DNA of 64,000 nt from Novosphingobium decolorationis (lineage in GTDB: Bacteria; Pseudomonadota; Alphaproteobacteria; Sphingomonadales; Sphingomonadaceae): NCBI RefSeq assembly GCF_018417475.1, contig NZ_CP054856.1:3193001-3257000 (forward strand), written 5' to 3'. The notes under the pieces are model-generated. The model was not told where the DNA came from. It did not search any database and worked only from the letters and a program-made list of their open reading frames with translations. Position numbers and translations under genes: made by a program. Position 1 is the stretch's first letter. Every line of letters starts with the position of its first letter. Of the stretch, positions 3,511-55,124 are shown piece after piece.

Positions 3511-4929
3511 TCAGGCGCCGGGCGGGGTGCCGGCGTCCTGGTCCTGGGGAAGGTCGATGGGCGTAGCCTGGCAGATCGTGCGCAGCGCGTTCTTGAGGCC
3601 TTCCTCGATGGTGGGGTGGTAGAAGGGGAGGGAGAGGAGTTCGCTCGCCGTGCGCCCTTCCTGGATCGCCCAGGCCAGCATGTGCGCCAAGTGCTCGCCT
3701 GCGGGTGCGACCATGTCGGCGCCGATCAGCCGCCCGTCGGGCGCCGCGGCGTGGAGGGTGAGCAGGCCGGCGTTGCGGCCTTCGACACGGGCGCGGCCCT
3801 GGTCATCGAAGTCGGCGGTGCCGGTGACCGCGCCCTCGTCCTCAGCTGCGCCAATGGTCGCGACCGTGGGCTCAGTGAAGATCATGCTGAAGGGGACATG
3901 GCGCTCGGCCGTCACGGGAGCGGGGAAGGCCGCTGCGTTGCGCCCGGCGATGGCCCCGTCGTGCGAGGCTTCGTGCAACAGGGGGAGGTCGGACGCGACG
4001 TCGCCAGCGAGGAACACCGCGCTGTCGCCGCAGCGCATGGTGCGCCGATCGTGGAAGGGGACGCCCTTGTCATCGCAGGCGATCCCCGCTGCATCGAGAT
4101 CAAGGTCGGTTAGCTGAGGGGCCCGACCCAGCGCGGCGAGCACGAGATCGTACTGCGCTTCGCCCGCCTCGTCTTCACCATCGGACCACTCGATCCGCGC
4201 GCTGTTCTCTTCGGCGTGGGGTGTCACCTCGACCCCGAGCTTGAGGTCGAGATCCGCTGCGATGATGGCCTGCAAGCGTTCGTGCACCCGCGCGCAGCGA
4301 AGGCCGCCCATACGTTCGGCGCGGTCGAACAGCGTGGTTTCCACGCCCAAGTGCGCGAAGGCCTGGGCCAGTTCCAGACCAATGGCGCCCGATCCCACGA
4401 CCGCGAGGCGGCGCGGCAGATCGTCCATCTCGAAGATGGTGTCGCTGGTCCGAACCCTGTCCCCCAGCGCCGCGAAAGCGGGGGGCAGGACCGGAGAAGA
4501 GCCGGTGGCGATGATGACCCGGTCCGCCGCGACACAGCGCCCGTCGTCAAGCGCCAGACGCCCCGGCGCGGTGAAGCGGGTGCGGGCCTTGATCGCGATA
4601 CCGGCGGGCAGGTCCTTGAAGGACTGGCGCGTCAGGCGAGCAAAGCGGTCGCGCTCATCACGCACCCGCTGCAGGACGGCGGGGCCGTCGATCGCGACAT
4701 CGCCAACCCCGATACCGAAGGGGCCTGCCGTCCTCACCGCGCGGGCCCGGTGCGCCGCGGCGATGAGGAGCTTGGAGGGCATGCAGCCGACAGTGGCGCA
4801 GGTCGTCCCGTTGAAGGCCGGATCGATCAGGAGGGTCGAGGCGCCATTGGCGCGCGCGGCGCGTTCGGCTGCGAGGCCGGCGGTACCGGCCCCGATCACC
4901 GCGACGTCGCAATGGAGCGTCTCGCCCAT
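3511..4929 (-). CDS. Pyridine nucleotide-disulfide oxidoreductase (dihydrolipoamide dehydrogenase/mercuric reductase-like)
   Basis: A 472-residue class I flavin disulfide reductase. It has the FAD Rossmann motif VIGAGTAGLA near residue 11, the redox disulfide CATVGC (Cys44/Cys49) followed by MPSK, a second dinucleotide fold (VVGSGAIGLELAQ), the second FAD motif ending in FLAGDV, and the C-terminal catalytic pair in YHPTIEE. ATG 4929 was chosen because the FAD motif follows directly and the upstream aldehyde dehydrogenase stops one base before it; a longer frame to 5001 would overlap that gene. It is the last gene of a three-gene operon. No lipoyl or dehydrogenase-complex partner is adjacent, so it may act on a small disulfide or quinone rather than on an E2 subunit. 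Confidence 0.9.
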   Translation of the reverse strand: MGETLHCDVAVIGAGTAGLAAERAARANGASTLLIDPAFNGTTCATVGCMPSKLLIAAAHRARAVRTAGPFGIGVGDVAIDGPAVLQRVRDERDRFARLTRQSFKDLPAGIAIKARTRFTAPGRLALDDGRCVAADRVIIATGSSPVLPPAFAALGDRVRTSDTIFEMDDLPRRLAVVGSGAIGLELAQAFAHLGVETTLFDRAERMGGLRCARVHERLQAIIAADLDLKLGVEVTPHAEENSARIEWSDGEDEAGEAQYDLVLAALGRAPQLTDLDLDAAGIACDDKGVPFHDRRTMRCGDSAVFLAGDVASDLPLLHEASHDGAIAGRNAAAFPAPVTAERHVPFSMIFTEPTVATIGAAEDEGAVTGTADFDDQGRARVEGRNAGLLTLHAAAPDGRLIGADMVAPAGEHLAHMLAWAIQEGRTASELLSLPFYHPTIEEGLKNALRTICQATPIDLPQDQDAGTPPGA

Positions 4930-35453: not shown

Positions 35454-36216
35454 TCAGGGTCTGATTTTGGCCTTGCGGGCCCGGCTGTGAGCGAGGCGAT
35501 AGCTTTCGCCGTTCATCTCGAGGATGCTGACGTGATGGGTCAGGCGATCGAGGAGCGCGCCTGTGAGACGCTCGGATCCGAAGGTTTCGGTCCATTCGTC
35601 GAAGGGCAGGTTGCTGGTGATCAAGGTGGAGCCGCGTTCGTAACGCTGGGAGATCAGCTCGAACAGCAGTTCGGCGCCGGTCTTGGAGAGCGGTACGAAG
35701 CCCAGTTCGTCGATGATGAGCAGTTTGTATCCGACCATCTGCTTCTGGAAGCGCAGGAGACGCCGCTCGTCGCGCGCCTCCATCATTTCGCTGACCAGCG
35801 CCGCCGCAGTGGTGAAGCCCACCGACAGCCCTTTCTGGCATGCTGCCAGTCCGAGCCCCAACGCTACGTGCGTCTTTCCGGTGCCCGATGGCCCCAGAGC
35901 GATGGCGTTCTCACGCCGCTCGATCCACTCGCAGCGCGCATCTCGAGCACCTGCATCTTGTTGAGCACGGGATGACGGTGAAGTCGAAGCTGTCGAGGCT
36001 TTTGACGGCGGGAAGCGCGCGGCCTTGATGCGCCGCTCGACCATACGACGCTCCCTGTCGATCATCTCCATCTCGACAAGGCGGGCGAGGAAGCGGATAT
36101 GATCGACGCCTTCAGCGGCACATTGCCGGGCGAGCTTGTGGTGCTCTCGCAGGCACGTAGGCAGCAGGTGCCTTGAGATTGTGAGCGAGAAGAAGCTCCG
36201 GGGTCTGATCGCTCAT
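35454..36216 (-). pseudogene. istB: istB (IS21 helper ATPase), frameshifted copy
   Basis: Equal to the intact copy at 40261-41028 over most of its length (LGPSGTGKTHVALGLGLAA Walker A, LLIIDELGFVPLS Walker B), but indels near 36160 and 35945-36020 break the frame, so the region KSLDSFDFTVIPRLNK is garbled. The changes are small insertions or deletions rather than substitutions. Confidence 0.85.
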
Positions 36217-37711
36217 GCGGCCTCCTGCTGGTCGGAGAGCAGGCTCAGATAGGCTCTGGCAAAGGTCTTCTCGACCGTTGTGCGTGGCAGGAAGGGATAG
36301 ACGTCCGTGTCAGCACGGGCGGTACGCGTTCGACCCGGCACAGGGCGAGGTGCTTGACGGCATCGAAGCCGATGGCGCCAAGATCAATGGCCTGTTCCAC
36401 CGCCGCACGGAGATCGGCGAGGGTGAACGTTTCCAACAGGCGCAGCACCTGTACATATTCACGCCTGCCATGCTTGTGCATGCGGCCTTCCATCAACCGC
36501 TGCAGTGTCGTGAACGCTTCGGGCAAATCCCAGCCCTGCAAAGGCGCGGCTCGGTCGAATGCGTTGATCTTCTGCTCGATCAGCGGGAGATAGTGGAGCG
36601 GGTCGAAGATAACCTCCTCGCGGGCATAACAACGAGGATGACGGGCGATGACTTCGCTGCGGCAGCCGACCACCACCTCATCGACATAGGCCCTGATCCA
36701 GACCTCCTGATGGCCCGGCCACCGGAACCGAATAATCGTTGGTCCTGTAGCGCACCAGGGATTGCGAGGAGACCCGCCCGCTCGTCTGATCGCAGGCCTC
36801 GAAGGGTGTAGCGGGCAGAGGCTGCATGGCTGCCAGATCGCGTTGCAAGCGCTCACCGATCGTCTCGCTCTGTCCGCGCACCTTGTCCTGCTGGCGCTTG
36901 CGGCATTGCTCCTCCAGCCATAGGTTGAAGGCCTCCCAGGTCGGGAACTTCGGGATCGGCACCATGAAATTGCGGCGGCAGTAACCAACCAGCCCTTCCA
37001 CATTGCCTTTCTCGTTCCTTGCCCGGGCGGGCATAGCGGTCGCGGATCACGTAATGCGACAGAAAGCGCTGAACAGCGTGGCACGCTTACGCGTGCCGTC
37101 TGGCAGGATCTTCGCCACAAGGCAGCGATCGTTGTCATAGACGATCGAGCGCGGCACCGCGCCGAAGAACGCGAAGGCATGAACGTGTCCGTCCACCGGC
37201 CTCCGCCACCGCCGCCGGATAGGCCGCACATAGCAGGCATCACTGTGCGGCAGATCGAGTGCGAAGAAGTAGGCCTTCTGCTGCACCCGCCGATCTCCAC
37301 CAGCGCTTCCCCGAAATCGGCCTGCGCATCCCCCGCCGGGTGGGCCAGCGGCACGAACATCTCCCGGCTGCGTTGCTCACGCTCGCGGATGTAATCCTTG
37401 ATGATCGTATAGCCGCCGGTGAAACCATGCTCGGCGCGCAAGCGGTCGAATACCCGCTTCGCCGTATGGCGCTGTTTGCGCGGGACGCAGCGGTCCCCTT
37501 CAAGCCATCCATCAATGATCGCCACAAACCCGTCCAGCTTCGGACGCTGCGGGACAGATTGACGCCGGTAACCCGGTGGCGATGAAAACGACAGCATCTT
37601 GCGCACCGTGTCGCGCGACACATTGAAACGCTTCGCCGCCGCCCGCTGGCTCATGCCATCCGCGCAAGCCAAACGGACCTGAAGATAAAGTTCCACGCTG
37701 TAGATCCCCAC
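36213..37711 (-). pseudogene. istA: istA (IS21 transposase), frameshifted copy
   Basis: Starts like copy 2 (GIYSVELYLQVRLACADGMS; HTH QRAAAKRFNVSRDTVRKML) but has several one- or two-base losses relative to it, at G runs near 37290, 37220, 37195 and 37020, which scatter the DDE domain over different frames. Intact stretches such as GYCRRNFMVPIPKFPTWEAF are readable in other frames. Confidence 0.85.
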
Positions 37712-37814
37712 ACCTCCCTGACTTGGCAGAAAGGCTTCAAGGTGGACGACTTTTACGCCGCCCGCAGCAGGACTATCCCGCCGCTAGCGTGGTCGAATAT
37801 TGCTCCGCCGTTCT

Positions 37815-38100
37815 CAAGCAGGCCGCGTCCCTTGCCGGCCTTGCACCGATTGCGCGGCAATCCGGACAATGGAAAGGCAAAAGCTTCATCCGCGGCGGAC
37901 GTGCTAACGTGAGGCAGGCCCTCTATATGCCGGCCCTCGTCGCCGCCCGATACAACCCTGACCTCAAGGCAAAGTACCAACAACTCGTCACCGCAGGAAA
38001 GCCCGCCAAAATCGCCATCACCGCCGTCATGCGAAAGCTCGTCGTGACCGCAAACGCTCTGCTCAAAGCCGATAGATGCTGGGCGCAATCTCAGACTTGA
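37815..38100 (+). pseudogene. IS110-family transposase, C-terminal fragment
   Basis: About 94 residues: KQAASLAGLAPIARQSGQWK, KSFIRGGRANVRQALYMPAL and KLVVTANALLKADRCWAQS, the standard C-terminus (transposase 20 domain) of IS110/IS116/IS902 proteins. The N-terminal RuvC-like DEDD domain is missing, cut by the IS21 end at 37816. The element had probably inserted in the kinase gene that follows. Confidence 0.85.
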
Positions 38101-38101
38101 T

Positions 38102-38651
38102 CATCACGGATACTCTAAGATCATCGATCCAGAACTCGAAGAGAAATATGGACGGGATCAACAAGAAATTCGGGTCGGCTTTGAGTTAAAGCTCGTAGGG
38201 CGGAAGCATCCACACCTGATCCAAATTTTTGACGGAGGGCGTTGTCCAAAAACGGACTTTCTGTTTCTAGTTATGGAATACCTTCCATACGACAATCTCG
38301 ACGACCTTCAAGGCAAAATTCCCTTTAATAAAATCCCACAAATTGCAGACCAATTGGCACAAGCGGCCCGATACTTAGAAGAGATAGACATTTGCCATCG
38401 TGACATTAAGCCGGAAAATATCGTCATTACACCAGATTTCGAACAAATAATACTTCTAGATCTTGGAATACTTCGCCCTTTAGTTGAGGACCATCAAGAT
38501 GCTGGCACTGGGTGCAATTTCATAGGAACAGTTCGATACAGTCCTCCAGAATTTGTCTGGCGAGTTGAAGAGGAAGATGCCGTTGGCCATCGCGCAATTA
38601 CATTTTACCAAATTGGTGCTGTATTGCATGATCTAATCATGAGGCGTCGTA
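38102..38651 (+). pseudogene. Eukaryotic-type Ser/Thr protein kinase fragment, AT-rich
   Basis: The open frame gives about 180 residues with LVGRKHPHLIQIFDGG (helix C region), LVMEYLPYDNLDD (hinge), ICHRDIKPENIVI (catalytic loop with HRD and Lys/Asn), LLDLGI (in place of DFG) and GTVRYSPPEF (activation-segment end). The glycine loop and the C-terminal lobe are missing: an IS110 fragment abuts on the left, IS21 copy 2 on the right. Base composition is clearly richer in A and T than its neighbours, pointing to transfer. Kinases of this kind occur in phage-defence loci, but the system cannot be identified. Confidence 0.8.
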
Positions 38652-38756
38652 TGAGAACGGCGGAGCAATATTCGACCACGCTAGCGGCGGGATAGTCCTG
38701 CTGCGGGCGGCGTAAAAGTCGTCCACCTTGAAGCCTTTCTGCCAAGTCAGGGAGGT

Positions 38757-40264
38757 GTGGGGATCTACAGCGTGGAACTTTATCTTCAGGTCCGTTTGGC
38801 TTGCGCGGATGGCATGAGCCAGCGGGCGGCGGCGAAGCGTTTCAATGTGTCGCGCGACACGGTGCGCAAGATGCTGTCGTTTTCATCGCCACCGGGTTAC
38901 CGGCGTCAATCTGTCCCGCAGCGTCCGAAGCTGGACGGGTTTGTGGCGATCATTGATGGATGGCTTGAAGGGGACCGCTGCGTCCCGCGCAAACAGCGCC
39001 ATACGGCGAAGCGGGTATTCGACCGCTTGCGCGCCGAGCATGGTTTCACCGGCGGCTATACGATCATCAAGGATTACATCCGCGAGCGTGAGCAACGCAG
39101 CCGGGAGATGTTCGTGCCGCTGGCCCACCCGGCGGGGGATGCGCAGGCCGATTTCGGGGAAGCGCTGGTGGAGATCGGCGGGGTGCAGCAGAAGGCCTAC
39201 TTCTTCGCACTCGATCTGCCGCACAGTGATGCCTGCTATGTGCGGGCCTATCCGGCGGCGGTGGCGGAGGCCTGGGTGGACGGACACGTTCATGCCTTCG
39301 CGTTCTTCGGCGCGGTGCCGCGCTCGATCGTCTATGACAACGATCGCTGCCTTGTGGCGAAGATCCTGCCAGACGGCACGCGTAAGCGTGCCACGCTGTT
39401 CAGCGCTTTCCTGTCGCATTACGTGATCCGCGACCGCTATGCCCGCCCGGGCAGGGGAACGAGAAAGGCAATGTGGAAGGGCTGGTTGGTTACTGCCGCC
39501 GCAATTTCATGGTGCCGATCCCGAAGTTCCCGACCTGGGAGGCCTTCAACCTATGGCTGGAGGAGCAATGCCGCAAGCGCCAGCAGGACAAGGTGCGCGG
39601 ACAGAGCGAGACGATCGGTGAGCGCTTGCAACGCGATCTGGCAGCCATGCAGCCTCTGCCCGCTACACCCTTCGAGGCCTGCGATCAGACGAGCGGGCGG
39701 GTCTCCTCGCAATCCTCGGTGCGCTACAGGACCAACGATTATTCGGTTCCGGTGGCCTGGGGCCATCAGGAGGTCTGGATCAGGGCCTATGTCGATGAGG
39801 TGGTGGTCGGCTGCCGCAGCGAAGTCATCGCCCGTCATCCTCGTTGTTATGCCCGCGAGGAGGTTATCTTCGACCCGCTCCACTATCTCCCGCTGATCGA
39901 GCAGAAGATCAACGCATTCGACCAGGCCGCGCCTTTGCAGGGCTGGGATTTGCCCGAAGCGTTCACGACACTGCAGCGGTTGATGGAAGGCCGCATGCAC
40001 AAGCATGGCAGGCGTGAATATGTACAGGTGCTGCGCCTGTTGGAAACGTTCACCCTCGCCGATCTCCAGGCGGCGGTGGAACAGGCCATTGATCTTGGCG
40101 CCATCGGCTTCGATGCCGTCAAGCACCTCGCCCTGTGCCGGGTCGAACGCGTACCGCCCAGGCTGGACCTGGACGTCTATCCCTTCCTGCCACGCACAAC
40201 GGTCGAGAAGACCTTTGCCAGAGCCTATCTGAGCCTGCTCTCCGACCAGCAGGAGGCCGCATGA
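38757..40264 (+). pseudogene. istA: istA (IS21 transposase) with a single frameshift
   Basis: Starting at GTG, the frame reads GIYSVELYLQ, the HTH AAAKRFNVSRDTVRKML, the DDE region with GDAQADFGEALVEIGG and RSIVYDNDRCLVAK up to DRYARPG, then shifts at about 39450 (GGCAGGGGAACG where GGCAAGGGGAACG would keep frame). The second frame continues GNVEGLVGYCRRNFMVPIPK to FARAYLSLLSDQQEAA, stop overlapping istB (ATGA). One missing A in a purine run accounts for the break; copy 1 has a different indel at the same spot. Confidence 0.88.
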
Positions 40265-41028
40265 GCGATCAGACCCCGGAGCTTCTTCTCGCTCACAATC
40301 TCAAGGCACTCAAGCTGCCTACGTGCCTGCGAGAGCACCACAAGCTCGCCCGGCAATGTGCCGCTGAAGGCGTCGATCATATCCGCTTCCTCGCCCGCCT
40401 TGTCGAGATGGAGATGATCGACAGGGAGCGTCGTATGGTCGAGCGGCGCATCAAGGCCGCGCGCTTCCCCGCCGTCAAAAGCCTCGACAGCTTCGACTTC
40501 ACCGTCATCCCCAGGCTCAACAAGATGCAGGTGCTCGAGATGGCGCGCTGCGAGTGGATCGAGCGGCGTGAGAACGCCATCGCTCTGGGGCCATCGGGCA
40601 CCGGAAAGACGCACGTAGCGTTGGGGCTCGGACTGGCAGCATGCCAGAAAGGGCTGTCGGTGGGCTTCACCACTGCGGCGGCGCTGGTCAGCGAAATGAT
40701 GGAGGCGCGCGACGAGCGGCGTCTCCTGCGCTTCCAGAAGCAGATGGTCGGATACAAACTGCTCATCATCGACGAACTGGGCTTCGTACCGCTCTCCAAG
40801 ACCGGCGCCGAACTGCTGTTCGAGCTGATCTCCCAGCGTTACGAACGCGGCTCCACCTTGATCACCAGCAACCTGCCCTTCGACGAATGGACCGAAACCT
40901 TCGGATCCGAGCGTCTCACAGGCGCGCTCCTCGATCGCCTGACCCATCACGTCAGCATCCTCGAGATGAACGGCGAAAGCTATCGCCTCGCTCACAGCCG
41001 GGCCCGCAAGGCCAAAATCAGACCCTGA
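40261..41028 (+). CDS. istB: IstB-like ATP-binding protein (IS21 helper)
   Basis: 255 residues. The N-terminal helical region (PELLLAHNLKALKLPTCLRE) leads to an AAA+ core with Walker A GPSGTGKTHVA, Walker B LLIIDELGFVP, sensor I in STLITSNLPFDEW and the terminal LTHHVSILEMNGESYRL. It assembles on target DNA and activates IstA. Start codon overlaps the istA stop. Intact, unlike its partner. Confidence 0.95.
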   Translation: MSDQTPELLLAHNLKALKLPTCLREHHKLARQCAAEGVDHIRFLARLVEMEMIDRERRMVERRIKAARFPAVKSLDSFDFTVIPRLNKMQVLEMARCEWIERRENAIALGPSGTGKTHVALGLGLAACQKGLSVGFTTAAALVSEMMEARDERRLLRFQKQMVGYKLLIIDELGFVPLSKTGAELLFELISQRYERGSTLITSNLPFDEWTETFGSERLTGALLDRLTHHVSILEMNGESYRLAHSRARKAKIRP

Positions 41029-47183: not shown

Positions 47184-48542
47184 GGTCGTGTCCCACGGGG
47201 TGGTGTAGGAAGGTTTCCCTGAGAGGGTGGCCACCGTCGATCTTCTGGTAGGGTTCGGATGCGAACTCGAACCTGGAGAAGAAGACGATGACCGACGACA
47301 GAATGGCCCTTGTTGAGCTGATTGAGCAAGGGGCTGATAGTGATTTGGTGCGTGAGATGCTGGCTTTCGCCGCCGAGCGCATGATGGATTTGGAGATCGA
47401 GGCGAAGACCGGTGCTCGCGCCGGCACGCGCAGCCCGGAGCGGCTCAACCACCGCAATGGCTACCGCGAGCGTGGGTGGGATACGCGCGCCGGGCGGATC
47501 GAACTGGCGATTCCGAAGCTGCGTAAAGGCAGCTACTTTCCCAGCTTCCTGGAACCGCGCCGCACCGCAGAGAAGGCTCTGGCGGCGGTGATCCAGGAGG
47601 CTTACGTCCACGGTGTCTCGACGCGCTCGGTCGATGATCTGGTAAAGGCTATGGGGGCCAGCGGTGTGTCGAAGAGCCAGGTCAGCCGCCTGGTCGCCGA
47701 GATCGACGAGCGGGTGAACGCCTTCCTCACGCGGCCGATCGAGGGCGAGTGGCCCTACCTGTGGATCGACGCCACCTACCTCAAGGTGCGTGAGGGCGGA
47801 CGGATCGTCTCGATGGCGGCGATAATCGCCGTTGGTGTCAACACCGATGGCCGCCGCGAAGTGCTGGGCGTCGCCACCGGCCCTTCGGAGGCGGAGCCCT
47901 TCTGGAAAGCCTTCCTGCGCTCTCTGGCCGACCGAGGCCTGCGCGGAGTGAAGCTTGTCATCGCCGATGATCACAAGGGGCTGCGCGCCGCCGCGAGCAA
48001 GGTGTTCAGCGCCAGCCAACAGCGATGCCGGGTGCACTGGATGCGCAATGCGCTGGCCCATGCTGCGCCCAAGCAGCGGCCCGCCGTCATCGCCATGATC
48101 AAGACCATCTTCGCGCAGGAAACGGCCGAGGCGGCTCTCCAGCAGTGGGAACAGGTTGCCGATGCCCTGCGCGAGAAGTTCCCGAAGCTCGCCGACATGA
48201 TGGACGCTTCGCGCGAGGACGTGCTCGCCTACATGACGTTCCCGAAGGACCACTGGGCGCAGATCGCCTCCACCAACCCGCTGGAAAGGGTGAATAAAGA
48301 GATCAAACGCCGCTCCGACGTCATCGGCATCTTCCCGAACGATGCCTCCGTCGTACGTCTCGTCGGCGCGCTGATGCTGGAGCAGAACGATGAGTGGGCG
48401 GTATCCCGACGCTACATGACGCTGGAAACCCTCGGCTCGGTGAGCCATAATCCAATCGTCAGCCTGCCAGCCCTGGCTGCCTGACCCGAACCCGGTCCTG
48501 CCGAGGATCGACGGTTCCTACACCACCCCACGGGACACGACC
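47184..48542 (+). mobile_element. IS256-family insertion sequence, 1359 bp
   Basis: 28-base imperfect inverted ends starting GGTCGTGTCCC and finishing GGGGTGGTGTAGGAA (47184-47211 and complement of 48515-48542, two mismatches). A further GATGCTT lies outside both ends, so the true tips may be up to 13 bases farther out. No clear 8-9 base target duplication. One intact transposase. It abuts the promoter region of the restriction-like operon. Confidence 0.88.
47288..48484 (+). CDS. IS256-family transposase
   Basis: 398 residues of the mutator-type DDE superfamily: ERLNHRNGYRERGWDTRAGR, LRKGSYFPSFLEPRR, DATYLKVREGGRIVS with the first Asp, LVIADDHKGLRAA with the second Asp, RCRVHWMRNALAH and the Glu in STNPLERVNKEIKRRSDVI. 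Full length with an intact frame, so the element may be active. Confidence 0.95.
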   Translation: MTDDRMALVELIEQGADSDLVREMLAFAAERMMDLEIEAKTGARAGTRSPERLNHRNGYRERGWDTRAGRIELAIPKLRKGSYFPSFLEPRRTAEKALAAVIQEAYVHGVSTRSVDDLVKAMGASGVSKSQVSRLVAEIDERVNAFLTRPIEGEWPYLWIDATYLKVREGGRIVSMAAIIAVGVNTDGRREVLGVATGPSEAEPFWKAFLRSLADRGLRGVKLVIADDHKGLRAAASKVFSASQQRCRVHWMRNALAHAAPKQRPAVIAMIKTIFAQETAEAALQQWEQVADALREKFPKLADMMDASREDVLAYMTFPKDHWAQIASTNPLERVNKEIKRRSDVIGIFPNDASVVRLVGALMLEQNDEWAVSRRYMTLETLGSVSHNPIVSLPALAA

Positions 48543-48656
48543 CGAAGCATCTGACTAACATGCGCGCAAACCGATTTGCATTCTTTTGCTAAAGCATTTT
48601 CAGTGGATTCAAGGTTGGACGTCACTTAGCTACGGGTAAGTATCTCGAGGCTCTTG

Positions 48657-51353
48657 ATGAACCCTACTGAAATTTATGACGCATTGGCGGAGATTGCCGC
48701 CAAACCGTTTGGCGCCACCGAATTCCCCTTCGCCTTTGCCGCCGCCACAGATGGTGCCAAGGCAGCGATCTCCAAGCTGAGGAGCGGGTCGACCAACAAG
48801 TCCGACGTTCAAGGCGGTGTGCTGTTCGGCAAGAAGTTCCACTATGCCCCCGCGCTGGCGGGCATGACCGATGGCACGCTGGACCAGCTGCGTAGCTCGA
48901 AGAAGACCAAGACCTCAAAGCCCGCGATCTTGATCGCCACCGATGGCGAGATGGTCGCGGCAGAGCATCCGGCCTCGGGCGATACGCTTCATTGCCGCTT
49001 TGCCGAGCTTGGCGACAACTTCGGTTTCTTCCTGCCTGCAGCGGGTAAGGAACGCTACCGTGCGGTCGAAGAAAACCCCGTCGACGTCAAGGCGACCGGC
49101 AAGCTCGCCCGGCTCTATGACGCCCTGACCAAGGCCAATCCGGACTGGGGCAGCGACGAGCGTCGGCACGAGATGAACCAGCTGATGATGCGGCTGATCT
49201 TCTGCATGTTTGCCGAGGATGTAGGCATCTTTCCCGATACACAGTTCTCGCGCCTGCTGTTCACCCATGCAGGCAACAAGGGCGAGGAAGCGCGCGAAAC
49301 CATCATCGCGGCTTTCCAGGCGATGAATTTGCCCAAGGCCAAGCGCGAAGGGCTGCCTCACTGGACCGTTGAGCTGGAATACGTCAACGGCGGGCTCTTT
49401 GCGGGCACCGTAGACGCGCCGCGCTTTGATGCCGTGGCCTTCCGTTATCTGCGCGAAGCCTGCGGTCTGAACTGGCGCGAGATCAACCCCGACATTTTCG
49501 GCTCAATGATCCAGTCGGTCGCGGACCCCAAGCAGCGCTCGGAACTGGGGATGCACTACACCTCGGTGCCGAACATCATGAAGGTGATCGGACCGCTCTT
49601 CCTCGATGACCTCGATGCCGAGATTCATAAGGCATGGGACCGCGCTAAGGGACTGCAACAAGTGCTGGATCGCATGTCGCGCATTCGCGTTTTCGATCCC
49701 GCCTGCGGATCGGGCAACTTCCTTGTCGTGTCATATCGCGAGCTACGGGCGCGCGAGACGCGCATCCTGCGGCGGCTCGAAGACCTGAATGGCCCCGGGT
49801 CGCTGGCGATGTTCTCGGCCATCCCCATCAGCCATTTCTACGGGATCGAGATAGCGGATTTCGCCGCCGAGACCGCCAAGCTGGCGCTATTCATCGCCGA
49901 ATATCAGGCGAATGCCAGCTTTGCCGAGGTCTTTGGGCGGAGTCCTGCCGCGCTGCCCCTGAAGGATGCTGCGCATATCCGCACCGAGAACTCGCTGCGC
50001 ATCGACTGGGAAGGGGTCTGCCCGCCCCCCGGTGAAGGCGAGGAGGTGTTCATTGCCGGCAACCCGCCGTTCTTGGGGTCAACCTACCAGAGCAAAGAAC
50101 AGAAGGCTGACCTCGCACATGTGTTCGCCGAGCACATCCAGAGCTTCGCCGCCTTCGATTTCGTGGCGGCATGGTTCTTCAAGGCGTCCCGCTACATCCG
50201 TGGACGCGCTGCTAAGGCCGCCCTCGTGTCTACTAACTCAATCTGCCAGGGATATTCGGTCGCCGCACTGTGGCCGCATATACTCGAAAACGATCTTGAG
50301 ATCGGGTTCGCTCACAAGGATTTCAAATGGCGGAACAATGCCTCCGCCAATGCGGCAGTAATCTGCTCTATCATTGGCATTCGAAACAACGGCAGGGAGC
50401 CGAAGCGACTATTTGACGATGGCGTCGAAAGTGTTGTCGACAACATCAATGCATATTTGGTTGTAGGACCATCGCTCTATGTAGAAGCCGTGCGCCAAGG
50501 CAAATTCGGACTTCCATTCATGGACTACGGAAATAAGCCTGCTGATGGCGGCCACCTGAGCCTGAATGTTGACGAAAGGGACGCAATTCTCAACGAAGAC
50601 CCGGAAGCTGAGCGTTTCATCAAGCGCTACATGGGATCGCAAGAAGTCACGAAAGGCATTGAACGCTACTGCCTGTGGGTGTCTCGCAGCGAATACGAAG
50701 CTGCCAAGCAAATTCCTGTTCTTGCCAAGCGCTTTGATCAGGTCAGGGAGTTCCGGTTGGCCAGCACCAAGGAGCCGACGCGTCGCATGGCGGAATGGCC
50801 GTTCGAGTTTGACCAGATTCGTGTGCAAGCGGATAAATCGTCGATCCTGATTCCTCGGCATACAAGTGAACATCGACCTTACCTGCCATGCGAATGGGTC
50901 TCCGAAGGCGTAGTCTGTTCTGATGCCAACATGATAATCTATGGTGCAGAACCATGGTGTATTCCGCTCATCGCCTCGCGCCTGCATCTTGTCTGGATTG
51001 CCACCGTCTGCGGCAAACTGAAATCCGACTTCCGCTACTCTAATACCCTCGGTTGGAACACTTTCCCGGTGCCGAAGTTCACTGCGGATCAGCTGGAGGC
51101 GCTCTCGGCCTCGGCCCGCAATATCCTGCGCTGCCGCTATTCCCACTACCCCGCCACGATTGCCGAGCTCTATGACCCCGACAAGATGCCAGACGACCTG
51201 CGCGCCGTGCATCGAGAAAACGACGAGCTTCTGGAATGCATGTATATTGGCCGTCCCTTCCGCAATGACACCGAACGTCTGGAGAAGCTCTTCAAGCTCT
51301 ATGCCGCCAAAGTGAAATCGCTGGAGGCCGCGCCAAAGAAAAAGAGGGCCTGA
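48657..51353 (+). CDS. MmeI-like class I DNA methyltransferase lacking a recognisable nuclease domain
   Basis: 898 residues. The middle holds the MmeI-type helical spacer (QLMMRLIFCMFAEDVGIFPD), the AdoMet motif I DPACGSGNF (347-355) and motif IV NPPF (469-472), so it should methylate an exocyclic amine (N6-adenine or N4-cytosine). The C-terminal third looks like a target-recognition domain followed by the family tail (LYDPDKMPDDLRAVHRENDE). MmeI proteins carry a D-ExK nuclease at the N-terminus; here the first 150 residues show no such motif. ATG 48657 has GAGG six bases upstream. First gene of a three-gene operon; helicase starts three bases after its stop. Confidence 0.9.
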   Translation: MNPTEIYDALAEIAAKPFGATEFPFAFAAATDGAKAAISKLRSGSTNKSDVQGGVLFGKKFHYAPALAGMTDGTLDQLRSSKKTKTSKPAILIATDGEMVAAEHPASGDTLHCRFAELGDNFGFFLPAAGKERYRAVEENPVDVKATGKLARLYDALTKANPDWGSDERRHEMNQLMMRLIFCMFAEDVGIFPDTQFSRLLFTHAGNKGEEARETIIAAFQAMNLPKAKREGLPHWTVELEYVNGGLFAGTVDAPRFDAVAFRYLREACGLNWREINPDIFGSMIQSVADPKQRSELGMHYTSVPNIMKVIGPLFLDDLDAEIHKAWDRAKGLQQVLDRMSRIRVFDPACGSGNFLVVSYRELRARETRILRRLEDLNGPGSLAMFSAIPISHFYGIEIADFAAETAKLALFIAEYQANASFAEVFGRSPAALPLKDAAHIRTENSLRIDWEGVCPPPGEGEEVFIAGNPPFLGSTYQSKEQKADLAHVFAEHIQSFAAFDFVAAWFFKASRYIRGRAAKAALVSTNSICQGYSVAALWPHILENDLEIGFAHKDFKWRNNASANAAVICSIIGIRNNGREPKRLFDDGVESVVDNINAYLVVGPSLYVEAVRQGKFGLPFMDYGNKPADGGHLSLNVDERDAILNEDPEAERFIKRYMGSQEVTKGIERYCLWVSRSEYEAAKQIPVLAKRFDQVREFRLASTKEPTRRMAEWPFEFDQIRVQADKSSILIPRHTSEHRPYLPCEWVSEGVVCSDANMIIYGAEPWCIPLIASRLHLVWIATVCGKLKSDFRYSNTLGWNTFPVPKFTADQLEALSASARNILRCRYSHYPATIAELYDPDKMPDDLRAVHRENDELLECMYIGRPFRNDTERLEKLFKLYAAKVKSLEAAPKKKRA

Positions 51354-51356
51354 TAA

Positions 51357-53432
51357 ATGGTTCAGATGGTCAATGTCACCTATGGCACCTCCAAGTCGAC
51401 AACGAACTCCCTTGGTCAACGCCCGATGCAGGCCCGCACCTATGCTGCCCGTGCAGCGCAGTTCCTGCTGCTGAAAGCGCCGCCAGCGGCGGGCAAGAGC
51501 CGCGCGCTGATGTTCGTCGCGCTCGACAAGCTGCGCCATCAGGGGCTGGACAAAACCATCGTCTGCGTGCCCGAAACCTCGATCGGCGGCTCGTTCCGCT
51601 CGACCGATCTGACCAGCTATGGCTTCGAGGCAGATTGGGAGGTCGATGACTGCTGGAACCTTTGCCTGACCGGCGAGGATGCCGGCAAACAGAAGGTGAA
51701 AGCCTTCCAGACCTTCATGGAGAGCAATGCCAGGGTGCTGGTCTGCACCCATGCCACCTTCCGCTTCGGCTTTGACGAGGTGATCAAAACCACGGGGATC
51801 GAGGCCTTCGACAACTGCTTCATTGCCATCGACGAATTCCACCATGTGTCGGCTTCGGACAATAACAGGCTGGGAGTGATCCTGCGCAGCCTGATCAATC
51901 GCGCCGAGTGCCATGTGATGGCGATGACCGGCAGCTATTTCCGTGGCGATGCCGATCCGGTGCTTCGTCCCGAGGACGAAGATCGCTTCACCAAGATCAC
52001 CTACAGCTATTACGAGCAGCTGGAGGGCTACGCCTGGCTCAAGGCGCTCGGGATCAACTACGAGTTCTACAAGGGCAATTACGTCAACGGGCTGCCAGGC
52101 GTGCTGAAGCCTGATCAAAAAACGATCATCCACATCCCGCATCGTGGCTCGTCCGAGGCGTTCGATGACAAGTTCAACGAGGTGGGCAAGATCCTCGACC
52201 TGCTGGGCTCTCATGAGGGGCGTGATCCTGAGACGGGGTTTGATCTGGTGCGCAAGCCCGATGGCGGGCTGCTGAAAGTGGCGGACTTGGTAGATGACGG
52301 GCCGGGCCGCGATATCGTGAAAGCCGCGCTGTCGCGCGAGATCAAAGGGCCGGATGGCAAACGCGATGACGTAGCGGACCGGGCCAAGGTTGACTTCATC
52401 ATTGCCCTCGGCATGGCCAAGGAGGGCTTCGACTGGGTCTGGTGTGAACATGCTCTGACAATCGGCTATCGGTCATCCCTGACCGAGATCGTGCAGATTA
52501 TCGGGCGCGCAACCCGCGACGCGCCGGGTAAGCCCCGCGCGCTGTTCACCAATCTCGTTGCCGAACCCGGCGTCGAAACAGGCGTCGTAACGGATGCGGT
52601 AAACGACATGCTCAAGGCGATCTCCGGGTCGCTTCTGATGGAGCAGGTACTGGCCCCCAACTTCAAATTCTACCGCCGCGAAGATGGCGACGTGCGCGCG
52701 CCCATGGGCACAGACGATGAAGGCAATGTCACCATCGGCGTCAAGGGACTGGTCGAGCCGCCCACGGACCGTTCGCGCGAGATCTGCGAAAAGGACATGA
52801 ATGATCTGATGGCGACTGCCTATCAGGAGATGGACCGGCGGGTACTGTCGCCTGACACGGCCCCCGAGGTTGCAACCCAGATGGTGCTGACCGATATCAT
52901 CGAGAAGCGGTATGAGGCGCTTGATCCCGAGGAAGCAGAATCCGTCCGTCAGCATCTGGCGGCACATATGAACGTCCTGACGCTGGCGCGGAGGGAAGCA
53001 GAACGCGGTTTTGCTGAGGGGCAGGCGCCCTTGAGCGGTTCGCCCCCGAAGCCGAGCGGTGACGACGATGATGGCGAACCCGCCAGCGCACCGAATACGC
53101 TTTTGGAGATGGTCCGGAAATTCATCAACGTCCGGGACATCGACATTGAGCTAATTGACAGCGTGAACACCTTCCAGGAGCGCTTCGAGGTCGCATCGAA
53201 ATCGCTGAACTCCGAGCTGCTGTCGCATGTCCAGTCAGCGATGGTTGCCTTGCGCGTAAACATGACCGGCGATGAGGCCCGGACGCTTTGGCCTCGCATC
53301 AAGGCATTCCGCGCTGCCGAAGGGCGTGAGCCTAATGTTCACTCCGCCAATCCGCTTGAAAAGCGCATGGCAGAGGCACTCGCTTGGCTGAAGGCCGAAA
53401 AGGCCAAACGCCTGCGTGAGGGGGCTATTTGA
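51357..53432 (+). CDS. SF2 DEAD/DEAH-family helicase, restriction-subunit-like
   Basis: 691 residues. Walker A LKAPPAAGKSR (Lys47), motif II DEFH (159-162), motif III AMTGSY (190-195) and motif VI QIIGRATRD (380-388) define an SF2 translocase related to restriction R subunits; motif V is in MAKEGFDWVW. The C-terminal 250 residues are helical with an acidic linker (GDDDDGEPAS) and hold no nuclease motif. It starts three bases after the methyltransferase stop, with GAGGG upstream, and its stop overlaps the GIY-YIG gene (TGATG). Expected to hydrolyse ATP and move on DNA for the partner nuclease. Confidence 0.9.
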   Translation: MVQMVNVTYGTSKSTTNSLGQRPMQARTYAARAAQFLLLKAPPAAGKSRALMFVALDKLRHQGLDKTIVCVPETSIGGSFRSTDLTSYGFEADWEVDDCWNLCLTGEDAGKQKVKAFQTFMESNARVLVCTHATFRFGFDEVIKTTGIEAFDNCFIAIDEFHHVSASDNNRLGVILRSLINRAECHVMAMTGSYFRGDADPVLRPEDEDRFTKITYSYYEQLEGYAWLKALGINYEFYKGNYVNGLPGVLKPDQKTIIHIPHRGSSEAFDDKFNEVGKILDLLGSHEGRDPETGFDLVRKPDGGLLKVADLVDDGPGRDIVKAALSREIKGPDGKRDDVADRAKVDFIIALGMAKEGFDWVWCEHALTIGYRSSLTEIVQIIGRATRDAPGKPRALFTNLVAEPGVETGVVTDAVNDMLKAISGSLLMEQVLAPNFKFYRREDGDVRAPMGTDDEGNVTIGVKGLVEPPTDRSREICEKDMNDLMATAYQEMDRRVLSPDTAPEVATQMVLTDIIEKRYEALDPEEAESVRQHLAAHMNVLTLARREAERGFAEGQAPLSGSPPKPSGDDDDGEPASAPNTLLEMVRKFINVRDIDIELIDSVNTFQERFEVASKSLNSELLSHVQSAMVALRVNMTGDEARTLWPRIKAFRAAEGREPNVHSANPLEKRMAEALAWLKAEKAKRLREGAI

Positions 53433-54649
53433 TGTCGCGCCCGAGCTTGGAAGACATTTTCGCGGAAAACGACGAGTTCGGCCTGTTGGATGTCAAACCT
53501 CGCGCGGGGCGCGGTGGTCCTGCGCAGGATCGTGGCGTCGCAGCCTTGCTCGAAGTAACCGCCTTCTATGAGCGTCATTCGCGCCTCCCCGATCCAGGCG
53601 CAATGGATCATGACGAGATGCGCCTTGGAGCAATCTGGGGCACCGTAAAGTTGGCTCCCACCGATCAGATGCGGGCTGCGGATCGGTTGCTACTGCTAAG
53701 CGACTCCGCCACCCCAACGTCGCGTTCATGGCAAGATGAGCCTGTCGACGCTAGTATTCCCAACAGCCTGGATGACATCTTTGCTGATGACGATCTTGAT
53801 GTTGATCCGTCACTGGTCAGCCTCAAGCACACCACACCGGCTGCAGAAAGGCACGTTCCTGATCATCGCGCGGACTTCGTACCCTGCCAGGATTTCGAGC
53901 GGTTCCGCGAGCGCTTTGAGACGGTCCAGCACGGCTTGGAGGCAGGTGAGCGCCAAGCAAGCCCTATACGGAAATGGTCAGTGATCGAGCCGATCGAAGG
54001 AGACTTCTTCATAAGGAACGGTTTGCTCGCCATGATTGCCGAGAAGTCGGAAATGACCGCTCGTGGCGGCGCGCGCGACCATCGACTTCGCGTCATCTTT
54101 TCAAACGGCACAGAGAGCGACCCGCTCATGTCGTCGTTCCGAAAATCCCTGAATGACGACAAGACTGCTCGCATGGTCCAGAAGATTGGCCTCGGGCCAC
54201 TTGATCCTGAATGGGAAAACGATCAGCTCGAACTGTCGGGAACGATCTATGTTGCCCGCTCCCGATCCGAAAATCCTGAGATCAAAGGACAGCGTATGAT
54301 CTTACATAAGATCGGCGTCACCAGCCAAGATGTATCCCGCCGAGTTGCAGACGCCAGAAACGATCCGACGTTTCTTCTCGCGCCGGTGGAGATCGTCGCG
54401 ACCTACAGTCTGCAAAATCTGTCGCGCAACAAAGTCGAGAACCTGCTTCACCGCTTCTTCGCAGGGGCTCGTCCTGCCAAGCTATTCGTCACAGATAGGT
54501 TCGGAAAGAAGGTGCGTCCTAAGGAATGGTTCTATGTCTTGCCAGAACACGTCGGTCAGGCAGCTAAGCTGATCGAAGAGGGGACCTTGCATCGGTATCT
54601 TTATGATGTCGACACTCAGAGAATTATATTAAAAAACGAGATAACCTGA
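53432..54649 (+). CDS. GIY-YIG nuclease family protein (T5orf172-like domain)
   Basis: 405 residues. The C-terminal domain (about 268-370) has the GIY-like strand SGTIYVARS, the YIG-like strand LHKIGVTSQD, an arginine in VSRRVADARN, a metal-binding Glu in NKVENLLHRFF and EWFYV, as in T5orf172/MUG113 GIY-YIG nucleases. The N-terminal 250 residues are of unknown fold with two short repeats (PSLEDIFAENDE and NSLDDIFADDDL), which may be docking peptides. ATG 53432 overlaps the helicase stop. As the only nuclease motif in the operon, it probably cuts DNA for the methyltransferase-helicase pair. Confidence 0.88.
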   Translation: MSRPSLEDIFAENDEFGLLDVKPRAGRGGPAQDRGVAALLEVTAFYERHSRLPDPGAMDHDEMRLGAIWGTVKLAPTDQMRAADRLLLLSDSATPTSRSWQDEPVDASIPNSLDDIFADDDLDVDPSLVSLKHTTPAAERHVPDHRADFVPCQDFERFRERFETVQHGLEAGERQASPIRKWSVIEPIEGDFFIRNGLLAMIAEKSEMTARGGARDHRLRVIFSNGTESDPLMSSFRKSLNDDKTARMVQKIGLGPLDPEWENDQLELSGTIYVARSRSENPEIKGQRMILHKIGVTSQDVSRRVADARNDPTFLLAPVEIVATYSLQNLSRNKVENLLHRFFAGARPAKLFVTDRFGKKVRPKEWFYVLPEHVGQAAKLIEEGTLHRYLYDVDTQRIILKNEIT

Positions 54650-55050: not shown

Positions 55051-55124
55051 TGGATGCCCCGCGAGGATTCGAACCTCGATAGACGGAATCAGAATCCGTA
55101 GTCTTACCATTAGACGACGGGGCA
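55051..55124 (-). tRNA. tRNA-Gln (anticodon CTG)
   Basis: Minus strand reads TGCCCCG (acceptor), TAATGGTAAGAC (D arm), a stem ACGGA-TTCTGAT-TCCGT whose loop gives anticodon CTG for codon CAG, GAGGTTCGAATCCTC (T arm) and CGGGGCA-T with CCA encoded. All four stems pair. The CCA abuts repeat copy C. Confidence 0.97.

Follow-up and report, generated by a model that had tools for sequence, protein, structure and literature searches.

The 64,000-nucleotide stretch of Novosphingobium decolorationis DNA analysed here (the window; NZ_CP054856.1, positions 3,193,001 to 3,257,000) carries at 48657-54649, on its + strand, three consecutive genes for a methyltransferase (MT), a superfamily 2 (SF2) helicase or translocase (HEL) and a GIY-YIG protein (GIY). 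This gene set is known from Bacillus subtilis as dnmA-yeeB-yeeC, and the window holds a well-preserved member of what is an under-described restriction-like family. All three frames are open: MT starts at 48654 (TTG) or 48657 (ATG) and ends at 51353 (899 residues from the TTG), HEL runs from 51357 to 53432 (691 residues), and GIY starts at 53429 (TTG) or 53432 (ATG) and ends at 54649 (406 residues from the TTG). Three bases separate the MT stop from the HEL ATG, and the last base of the HEL stop is the first of the GIY ATG, so the three intact, closely spaced genes described in an earlier note made from the sequence alone are borne out. Genome searches returned a single match each for MmeI_Mtase, HEL and GIY. 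The features of the locus are as follows.

48657..51353, + strand: MT, MmeI/DnmA-type adenine methyltransferase with a predicted inactive N-terminal nuclease domain (Pfam; PDB relative 5hr4)
48654..49133, + strand: MT residues 1-160, MmeI_N (PD-(D/E)XK-type) without the active-site D, E and K (Pfam, alignment, hhalign)
49626..50417, + strand: MT residues 325-588, MmeI_Mtase domain with DPACGSGNF and NPPF (Pfam, reading of the frame)
50466..51077, + strand: MT residues 605-808, target recognition domain (TRD) (Pfam, recognition code)
50101..50954, + strand: exchanged cassette, diverged among otherwise close relatives, left edge at about 50.07-50.57 kb (comparison of relatives)
51357..53432, + strand: HEL, SF2 helicase/translocase, YeeB-like (Pfam, conservation, structural matches)
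53253..53399, + strand: shared module in HEL, about residues 633-681 (profile alignment)
53432..54649, + strand: GIY, GIY-YIG/T5orf172/MUG113 protein, YeeC-like (Pfam, conservation)
53510..53653, + strand: shared module in GIY, about residues 28-75 counted from the TTG (profile alignment)
54239..54574, + strand: GIY-YIG catalytic domain of GIY, residues 271-382 (Pfam, conservation)

Active-site residues and a module shared by HEL and GIY

MT has the complete MmeI domain order, with MmeI_N, MmeI_hel, MmeI_Mtase, MmeI_TRD and MmeI_C all above their Pfam cut-offs, and the DPACGSGNF and NPPF motifs read in the earlier note lie in its MmeI_Mtase domain. Its sole significant sequence relative in the PDB is MmeI (5hr4, E 2.6e-150), the alignment beginning at residue 125. 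The catalytic residues of MmeI are D70, E80 and K82 (PMC4833311). We aligned MT open reading frames (ORFs) of at least 850 residues scoring above 600 bits, namely the window's, 93 from other trios and 7 from stand-alone MmeI homologues, leaving out broken or cut-off MTs such as L033, L052, L102 and L110. All 7 stand-alone proteins keep D, E and K. In all 94 trio MTs, the window's included, an alignment gap replaces the D, K, N, R, G, Q, S, A, T or H stands in place of the E and F, I, L or V in place of the K, and the D-ExK residues are also lost in 6/6 MTs of plasmid trios. A loose D-x6-14-(D/E)xK pattern occurs at other positions in 15/94 trio MTs and 3/6 plasmid trios and is not conserved; a search of the window MT for it found none. 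The MmeI_N domain is kept (hhalign probability 96.6 between trio and stand-alone N-domains), and a tree of 115 sequences and 340 columns sets the trio MTs apart on one side of a split (support 0.966). The nuclease domain of MT itself is thus predicted to be dead across the trio family.

HEL matches DEAD (25 bits) and Helicase_C (19.7 bits) slightly under cut-off and has an SF2 fold by structural matches. Among HEL proteins of at least 600 residues, 96 of 97 retain G46/K47/S48 and all 97 retain D159/E160/F161/H162, T191/G192/S193, Q380, G383/R384 and R387, in line with the helicase motifs described in the earlier note. A Pfam scan matched no nuclease family in HEL. GIY matches MUG113 and T5orf172 above cut-off at its C-terminal end, where G271, Y274, K294, G296, R305, E337, H341, E366 and W367 are invariant in 98/98 proteins of at least 370 residues. 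The GIY-YIG domain is therefore the sole intact nuclease signature of the set, beside an MmeI-type MT without its own nuclease, as the earlier description of a split restriction-like set had it.

The C-terminus of HEL (about residues 633-681) and the N-terminus of GIY (about 28-75) share a module with the motif F..E.GR.P...D..E.R.A. Their profiles align over 48 columns with probability 95.2 (E 2.8e-8); the best of 100 column shuffles reached 34.4 (E 4e-4), the reversed profile 0.1 and other pairs of regions 0.1-0.4. Run on all ORFs of the loci collected, a hidden Markov model (HMM) of the HEL module gave 36 domain matches in GIY proteins, and no ORF besides HEL and GIY matched; an HMM of the GIY module found 42 domains in HEL. 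No Pfam family covers the module in a Pfam scan. Docking of HEL and GIY on each other, or descent of both from one chain, would explain it.

Distribution of the trio and exchange of its recognition domain

We searched 299 Pseudomonadota genomes with MmeI_Mtase and with profiles of HEL and GIY. HEL was found in 20, full-length GIY in the same 20, and an MT upstream of HEL in 20/20; about 7 kb separate MT and HEL in G013 and G068, and G128 has an additional GIY match of 79 residues containing a stop. An ordered trio in 20/299 genomes is not a product of chance, and the possibility, raised in the earlier note, that the three genes are rarely neighbours elsewhere fails. The 26 strongest MmeI_Mtase places comprise 19 trios (window included) and 7 stand-alone genes, with an eighth stand-alone copy (L112) at a lower score. 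At three of these eight stand-alone loci (L107, L109 and L110) the contig ends within about 1 kb downstream, and their lack of HEL rests on the genome-wide search. At 14 more distant type IIG-like places no HEL or GIY lay within the fetched stretch. When 80 loci were selected by HEL, MT was located in 77 and GIY in 78; the misses include L054 (GIY) and L065 (MT), both short contigs, and HEL is partial at L058 and L059. At L139 (genome G142), MT lies in two overlapping frames beside a short C run (4388-4406), and HEL and GIY are open; the MT may be broken or phase-variable, or the assembly may be wrong at this point.

The trio extends well beyond this phylum. HEL matched 263 of 72,556 plasmid records, in 153 of which a single place spans 80% or more of the query, and all six records inspected are trios, from Kozakia and Zymomonas (Alphaproteobacteria), Pediococcus and Lactobacillus (Bacillota), Rhodococcus (Actinomycetota) and Synechococcus (Cyanobacteriota). 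Loci picked by HEL also include, by record name, Bacteroidota and Verrucomicrobiota, partly metagenome-assembled genomes. Over their full length, the Bacillota plasmid trios are 44-45% (HEL), 36-37% (MT) and 27-28% (GIY) identical to the window's. Within the genus sample, 2 of 25 genomes have HEL, namely the window's and G312 (where it is 52% identical), and 4 of 41 do among all relatives; its rarity in the genus, together with identities of up to 96% in other families, indicates that the trio was horizontally acquired. On one Pediococcus plasmid (L142; NZ_CP148041.1, 7677 bp) the trio makes up the only three annotated genes, a natural minimal system. On the Zymomonas plasmid (L141; NC_013356.1) genes with MotA/TolQ, OmpA and EH-signature domains come after it, a set that we take to be Zorya-like.

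The recognition domain has a different history from the rest of MT. In the 14 relatives nearest to the window in HEL (90-96% identity), MT is 87-93% identical in the N-domain, 90-96% in the spacer and 87-96% in the C-domain; on the same scale the MTase domain is 70-91%, GIY 75-89% and the TRD 36-57% identical. At the DNA level, six aligned relatives are mostly 79-92% identical to the left of 50.1 kb and 83-92% from 51001, and fall to 41-63% in the bins 50401-51000, four of the six being already at 55-58% from 50101. BLASTN matches of many relatives stop at about 50068-50110 and those of others at 50.25-50.57 kb, most of them starting again at 50954-50955; L022 and L030 are matched without a break. 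L022 resembles the window in recognition type although its HEL is just 83% identical, as would be expected after exchange. Across locus pairs with HEL at least 90% identical, which are not independent of one another, the TRD is less than 90% identical in 132/140. The base-contact residues vary along with it: K-D or E-R, for instance, stands at the equivalents of MmeI 806/808, by which position 6 is read as G or C (PMC4833311). By these comparisons the recognition domain is replaced like a cassette, which suggests that MT also directs restriction: such swaps would be survivable for a host only where the cutting arm takes its lead from MT or lacks a specificity of its own.

The contacts of the window MT are R735/D757, A758/R794, K790/D792 and K628, equivalent to MmeI 751/773, 774/810, 806/808 and 645. 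By the published TRD code (PMC4833311) they predict the site N-C-G-R-A-G, with position 1 unreadable; His stands at the usual Thr752, so the site is a prediction only.

The MT-HEL slot and the surroundings of the trio

The two junctions of the trio behave differently in loci with both flanking genes found (98 for MT-HEL, 97 for HEL-GIY). The MT-HEL gap exceeds 150 bp in 30/98 loci, one of them, L052, with a broken HEL, and 26/98 hold same-strand ORFs of about 90 residues or more; three of the long gaps have no ORF or only one on the opposite strand. The HEL-GIY gap exceeds 50 bp in 1/97, the broken L052, and no extra same-strand ORF was found there in the 97 loci. Of the 53 slot ORFs, 20 were run against Pfam and 10 against PADLOC, other family members being recognized by BLASTP clustering. 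The largest group is Abi_2 with a PD-T4-5/AbiD-like match (a cluster of 10 loci), beside which a 259-residue protein without a match stands in 5 loci. Others are RhuM/PDC-S05 (cluster of 3), PDDEXK_4/PDC-S26 (2), DUF1016_N (2), KilA-N/PDC-S22 and PDC-S11, a reverse transcriptase with a helix-turn-helix (HTH) protein at L089, and an HTH/Peptidase_M78 protein with DUF1828 at L096. Nine of the representatives examined, including those at L077, L094, L097 and L099, lack a Pfam match. Slot ORFs may not all be genes, and the 10 Abi loci are related, so there are fewer events than loci. Plasmid trios carry slot genes too: an unknown gene in Lactobacillus, and in Synechococcus a toxin-antitoxin pair at a locus (L145, NZ_CP143850.1, 9321-10637) that also has a HEPN-domain gene immediately after GIY. 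The window's own slot is empty. Accessory genes inside such loci have a precedent in PrrC, which is embedded in a type I locus (PMC12707154).

The trio lies in a segment rich in insertion sequences (IS) and close to a tRNA, as the earlier note had it. An IS256-like element at 47184-48542, with a Transposase_mut domain and 28-bp inverted repeats that differ at 2 positions, leaves 114 bp between its end and the MT ATG, and DNA similarity to relatives by BLASTN begins at 48588 at the earliest. The element may have severed the trio from a promoter, or supplied one. The only promoter-like site in a scan lies inside the IS, and there are fewer sites than in shuffled sequence, which leaves expression of the trio here uncertain. 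Downstream lie tRNA-Gln (55051-55124), ppx/gppA and rlmE. Farther upstream, IS21-type genes form two opposed copies at about 35.4-37.7 kb and 38.8-41.0 kb (35454-41028), and both transposase frames look broken.

Known relatives and mode of action

In B. subtilis, dnmA (yeeA) encodes an MmeI homologue without an endonuclease motif and is followed by genes for a helicase (yeeB) and a T5orf172/GIY-YIG protein (yeeC), an order that recurs around DnmA homologues (PMC7261158, PMC9973331). These two papers report 1.8 defence-associated neighbours for DnmA homologues versus 0.56 in random regions, credit Morgan et al. 2009 with nuclease-less MmeI homologues before yeeB/yeeC-like genes and a type I-like proposal, and credit Makarova et al. 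2011 with defence-island membership. The window trio has the same anatomy, a nuclease-less MmeI-like MT with an SF2 helicase one gene and a T5orf172/GIY-YIG protein two genes downstream on the same strand, as in B. subtilis and Vibrio crassostreae, and B. subtilis, taken as control genome, has an MmeI_Mtase match. The earlier statement that the set matches none known was wrong. What differs is the host and, comparing published descriptions, the site (predicted N-C-G-R-A-G versus GACGAG in B. subtilis).

Other systems share parts of this anatomy. MmeI and the type IIL (type IIG) enzymes have the same domain order and recognition code, with MTase, TRD and C-terminal domain in one chain; the trio lacks their D-ExK and adds a helicase and a separate nuclease. 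Like type I and type ISP systems, it has an SF2 motor, embedded accessory genes and probably one recognition unit for marking and cutting. However, its specificity and methylation reside in one MmeI-type chain without HsdS, and its GIY-YIG nuclease sits on a separate chain, unfused to the motor; neither a separate HsdS nor an HsdR with fused nuclease is among the trio genes, the TRD being inside MT. PADLOC labels MT as type IIG and has no convincing model for HEL or GIY, so the comparison proposed in the earlier note finds an existing model for part of the trio only. That model, PDLC03598, gives 886-1010 bits to nuclease-less trio MTs and 1110-1192 to two nuclease-bearing MmeI homologues; since it scores both kinds, censuses may count trios as type IIG enzymes, and PADLOC would see a lone one where a full trio stands.

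We think it probable, on the comparative evidence, that this DnmA-YeeB-YeeC-type trio is a three-subunit, type I-like, ATP-driven restriction-modification system. The mechanism we envision is inferred from its anatomy and evolution. MT would bind the asymmetric 6-bp site, methylate its adenine and provide sequence specificity for restriction as well as methylation, and its dead nuclease domain may act as a scaffold. At an unmethylated site MT would engage HEL, which would translocate along double-stranded DNA carrying or contacting GIY, probably through the shared module; the helicase would in this way feed unmodified DNA to GIY, as the earlier note suggested. GIY would then cut where translocation stalls or where two complexes meet. 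The MmeI-type mark sits on one of the two strands; a requirement of cutting for two opposed unmodified sites, which is the rule for MmeI, type III and type ISP enzymes, would protect newly replicated host DNA.

Several observations weigh against this proposal. ATPase activity, cleavage and complex formation are deduced for the trio, and the structural matches of HEL are to SF2 motors in general rather than to restriction enzymes specifically. Lys replaces the second Tyr of the GIY-YIG signature in 98/98 GIY proteins. A fast-changing TRD would also be expected in an MT selected for other reasons to change its target, and L022 and L030 have no break in their BLASTN matches. The published work on B. 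subtilis found no effect of dnmA on plasmid uptake or transformation, three phages unaffected by single-gene deletions of yeeB or yeeC, and no avoidance of the DnmA site in phage genomes (PMC7261158, PMC9973331). Deletions of the dnmA and yeeB homologues in V. crassostreae, in contrast, increase sensitivity to some phages (PMC9973331, citing Piel et al.), so that the phage phenotype anticipated in the earlier note is in print for one host and absent in the other.

From these deletion phenotypes the B. subtilis work treats the cluster as a relic (PMC7261158, PMC9973331), which for the trio would mean an orphan MT that influences gene expression through N6-methyladenine, accompanied by HEL and GIY as passengers without a function. 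Broken MTs do lie beside intact HEL and GIY, in G142 with its two-frame gene and at L033, where only residues 561-888 were found. We nevertheless consider this reading unlikely: passengers should lose their active-site residues, which HEL and GIY retain almost without exception (96-97 of 97 and 98/98), HEL and GIY are never apart in the 20/299 genomes, and the TRD has been exchanged repeatedly. For most of the family, the lost MT nuclease, the exchanged cassette, the slot and the module argue against it. Slightly less probable still is a BREX-like action, in which methylation marks self and HEL and GIY block or nick phage DNA as it replicates, making no site-directed double-strand cuts, and phages would therefore show no site avoidance. 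As in BREX and DISARM, an adenine MT would mark self, and MT is weakly similar to DrmMI (109.6 bits); its scores against PglX are negligible (at most 15.7 bits, far under cut-offs), PADLOC and NCBIfam gave no Drm or Brx match for either HEL or GIY, and the remaining components of either system are absent from the trio. Beside the window trio there is no Drm or Brx/PglZ partner gene, the neighbours being the transposase, tRNA-Gln and ppx, and the claim that it differs from the BREX and DISARM gene sets holds. We give least weight to HEL and GIY as an abortive or damage-responding module that fires upon inhibition of MT or at phage replication forks, with MT as its guard. Nothing connects GIY to host killing, and the slot lacks a same-strand ORF in 72/98 loci, the window among them.

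To the published picture we add four points: the MT nuclease has been lost throughout the family, the recognition cassette is exchanged, the MT-HEL junction forms a cargo slot, and HEL and GIY have a module in common. The last three were not found in the parts of the literature on the trio that we consulted, which is not proof that they are unpublished. A bolder reading, to which we give somewhat less than an even chance, would make the trio a separate class of active, modular restriction systems. Its only specificity unit would be an MmeI chain with a dead nuclease, joined by a translocase and by a GIY-YIG cutter docked through a duplicated module. Such systems would evolve by swapping whole recognition cassettes, and a dedicated MT-HEL slot would collect genes for abortive infection, toxins, nucleases and reverse transcriptases, adding a second defensive layer.

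Besides its presence in 20/299 Pseudomonadota genomes, the trio occurs, going by the names of the records, in no fewer than five other phyla or in plasmids belonging to them. The exchange of cassettes is an argument that many copies serve in restriction, and it provides a testable motif; the MT-HEL slot is a place to seek unknown defence effectors. If the mechanism proposed here is true, the combination of an MmeI-type recognition code with a separate motor and cutter would be useful for understanding how methylation state passes between subunits.

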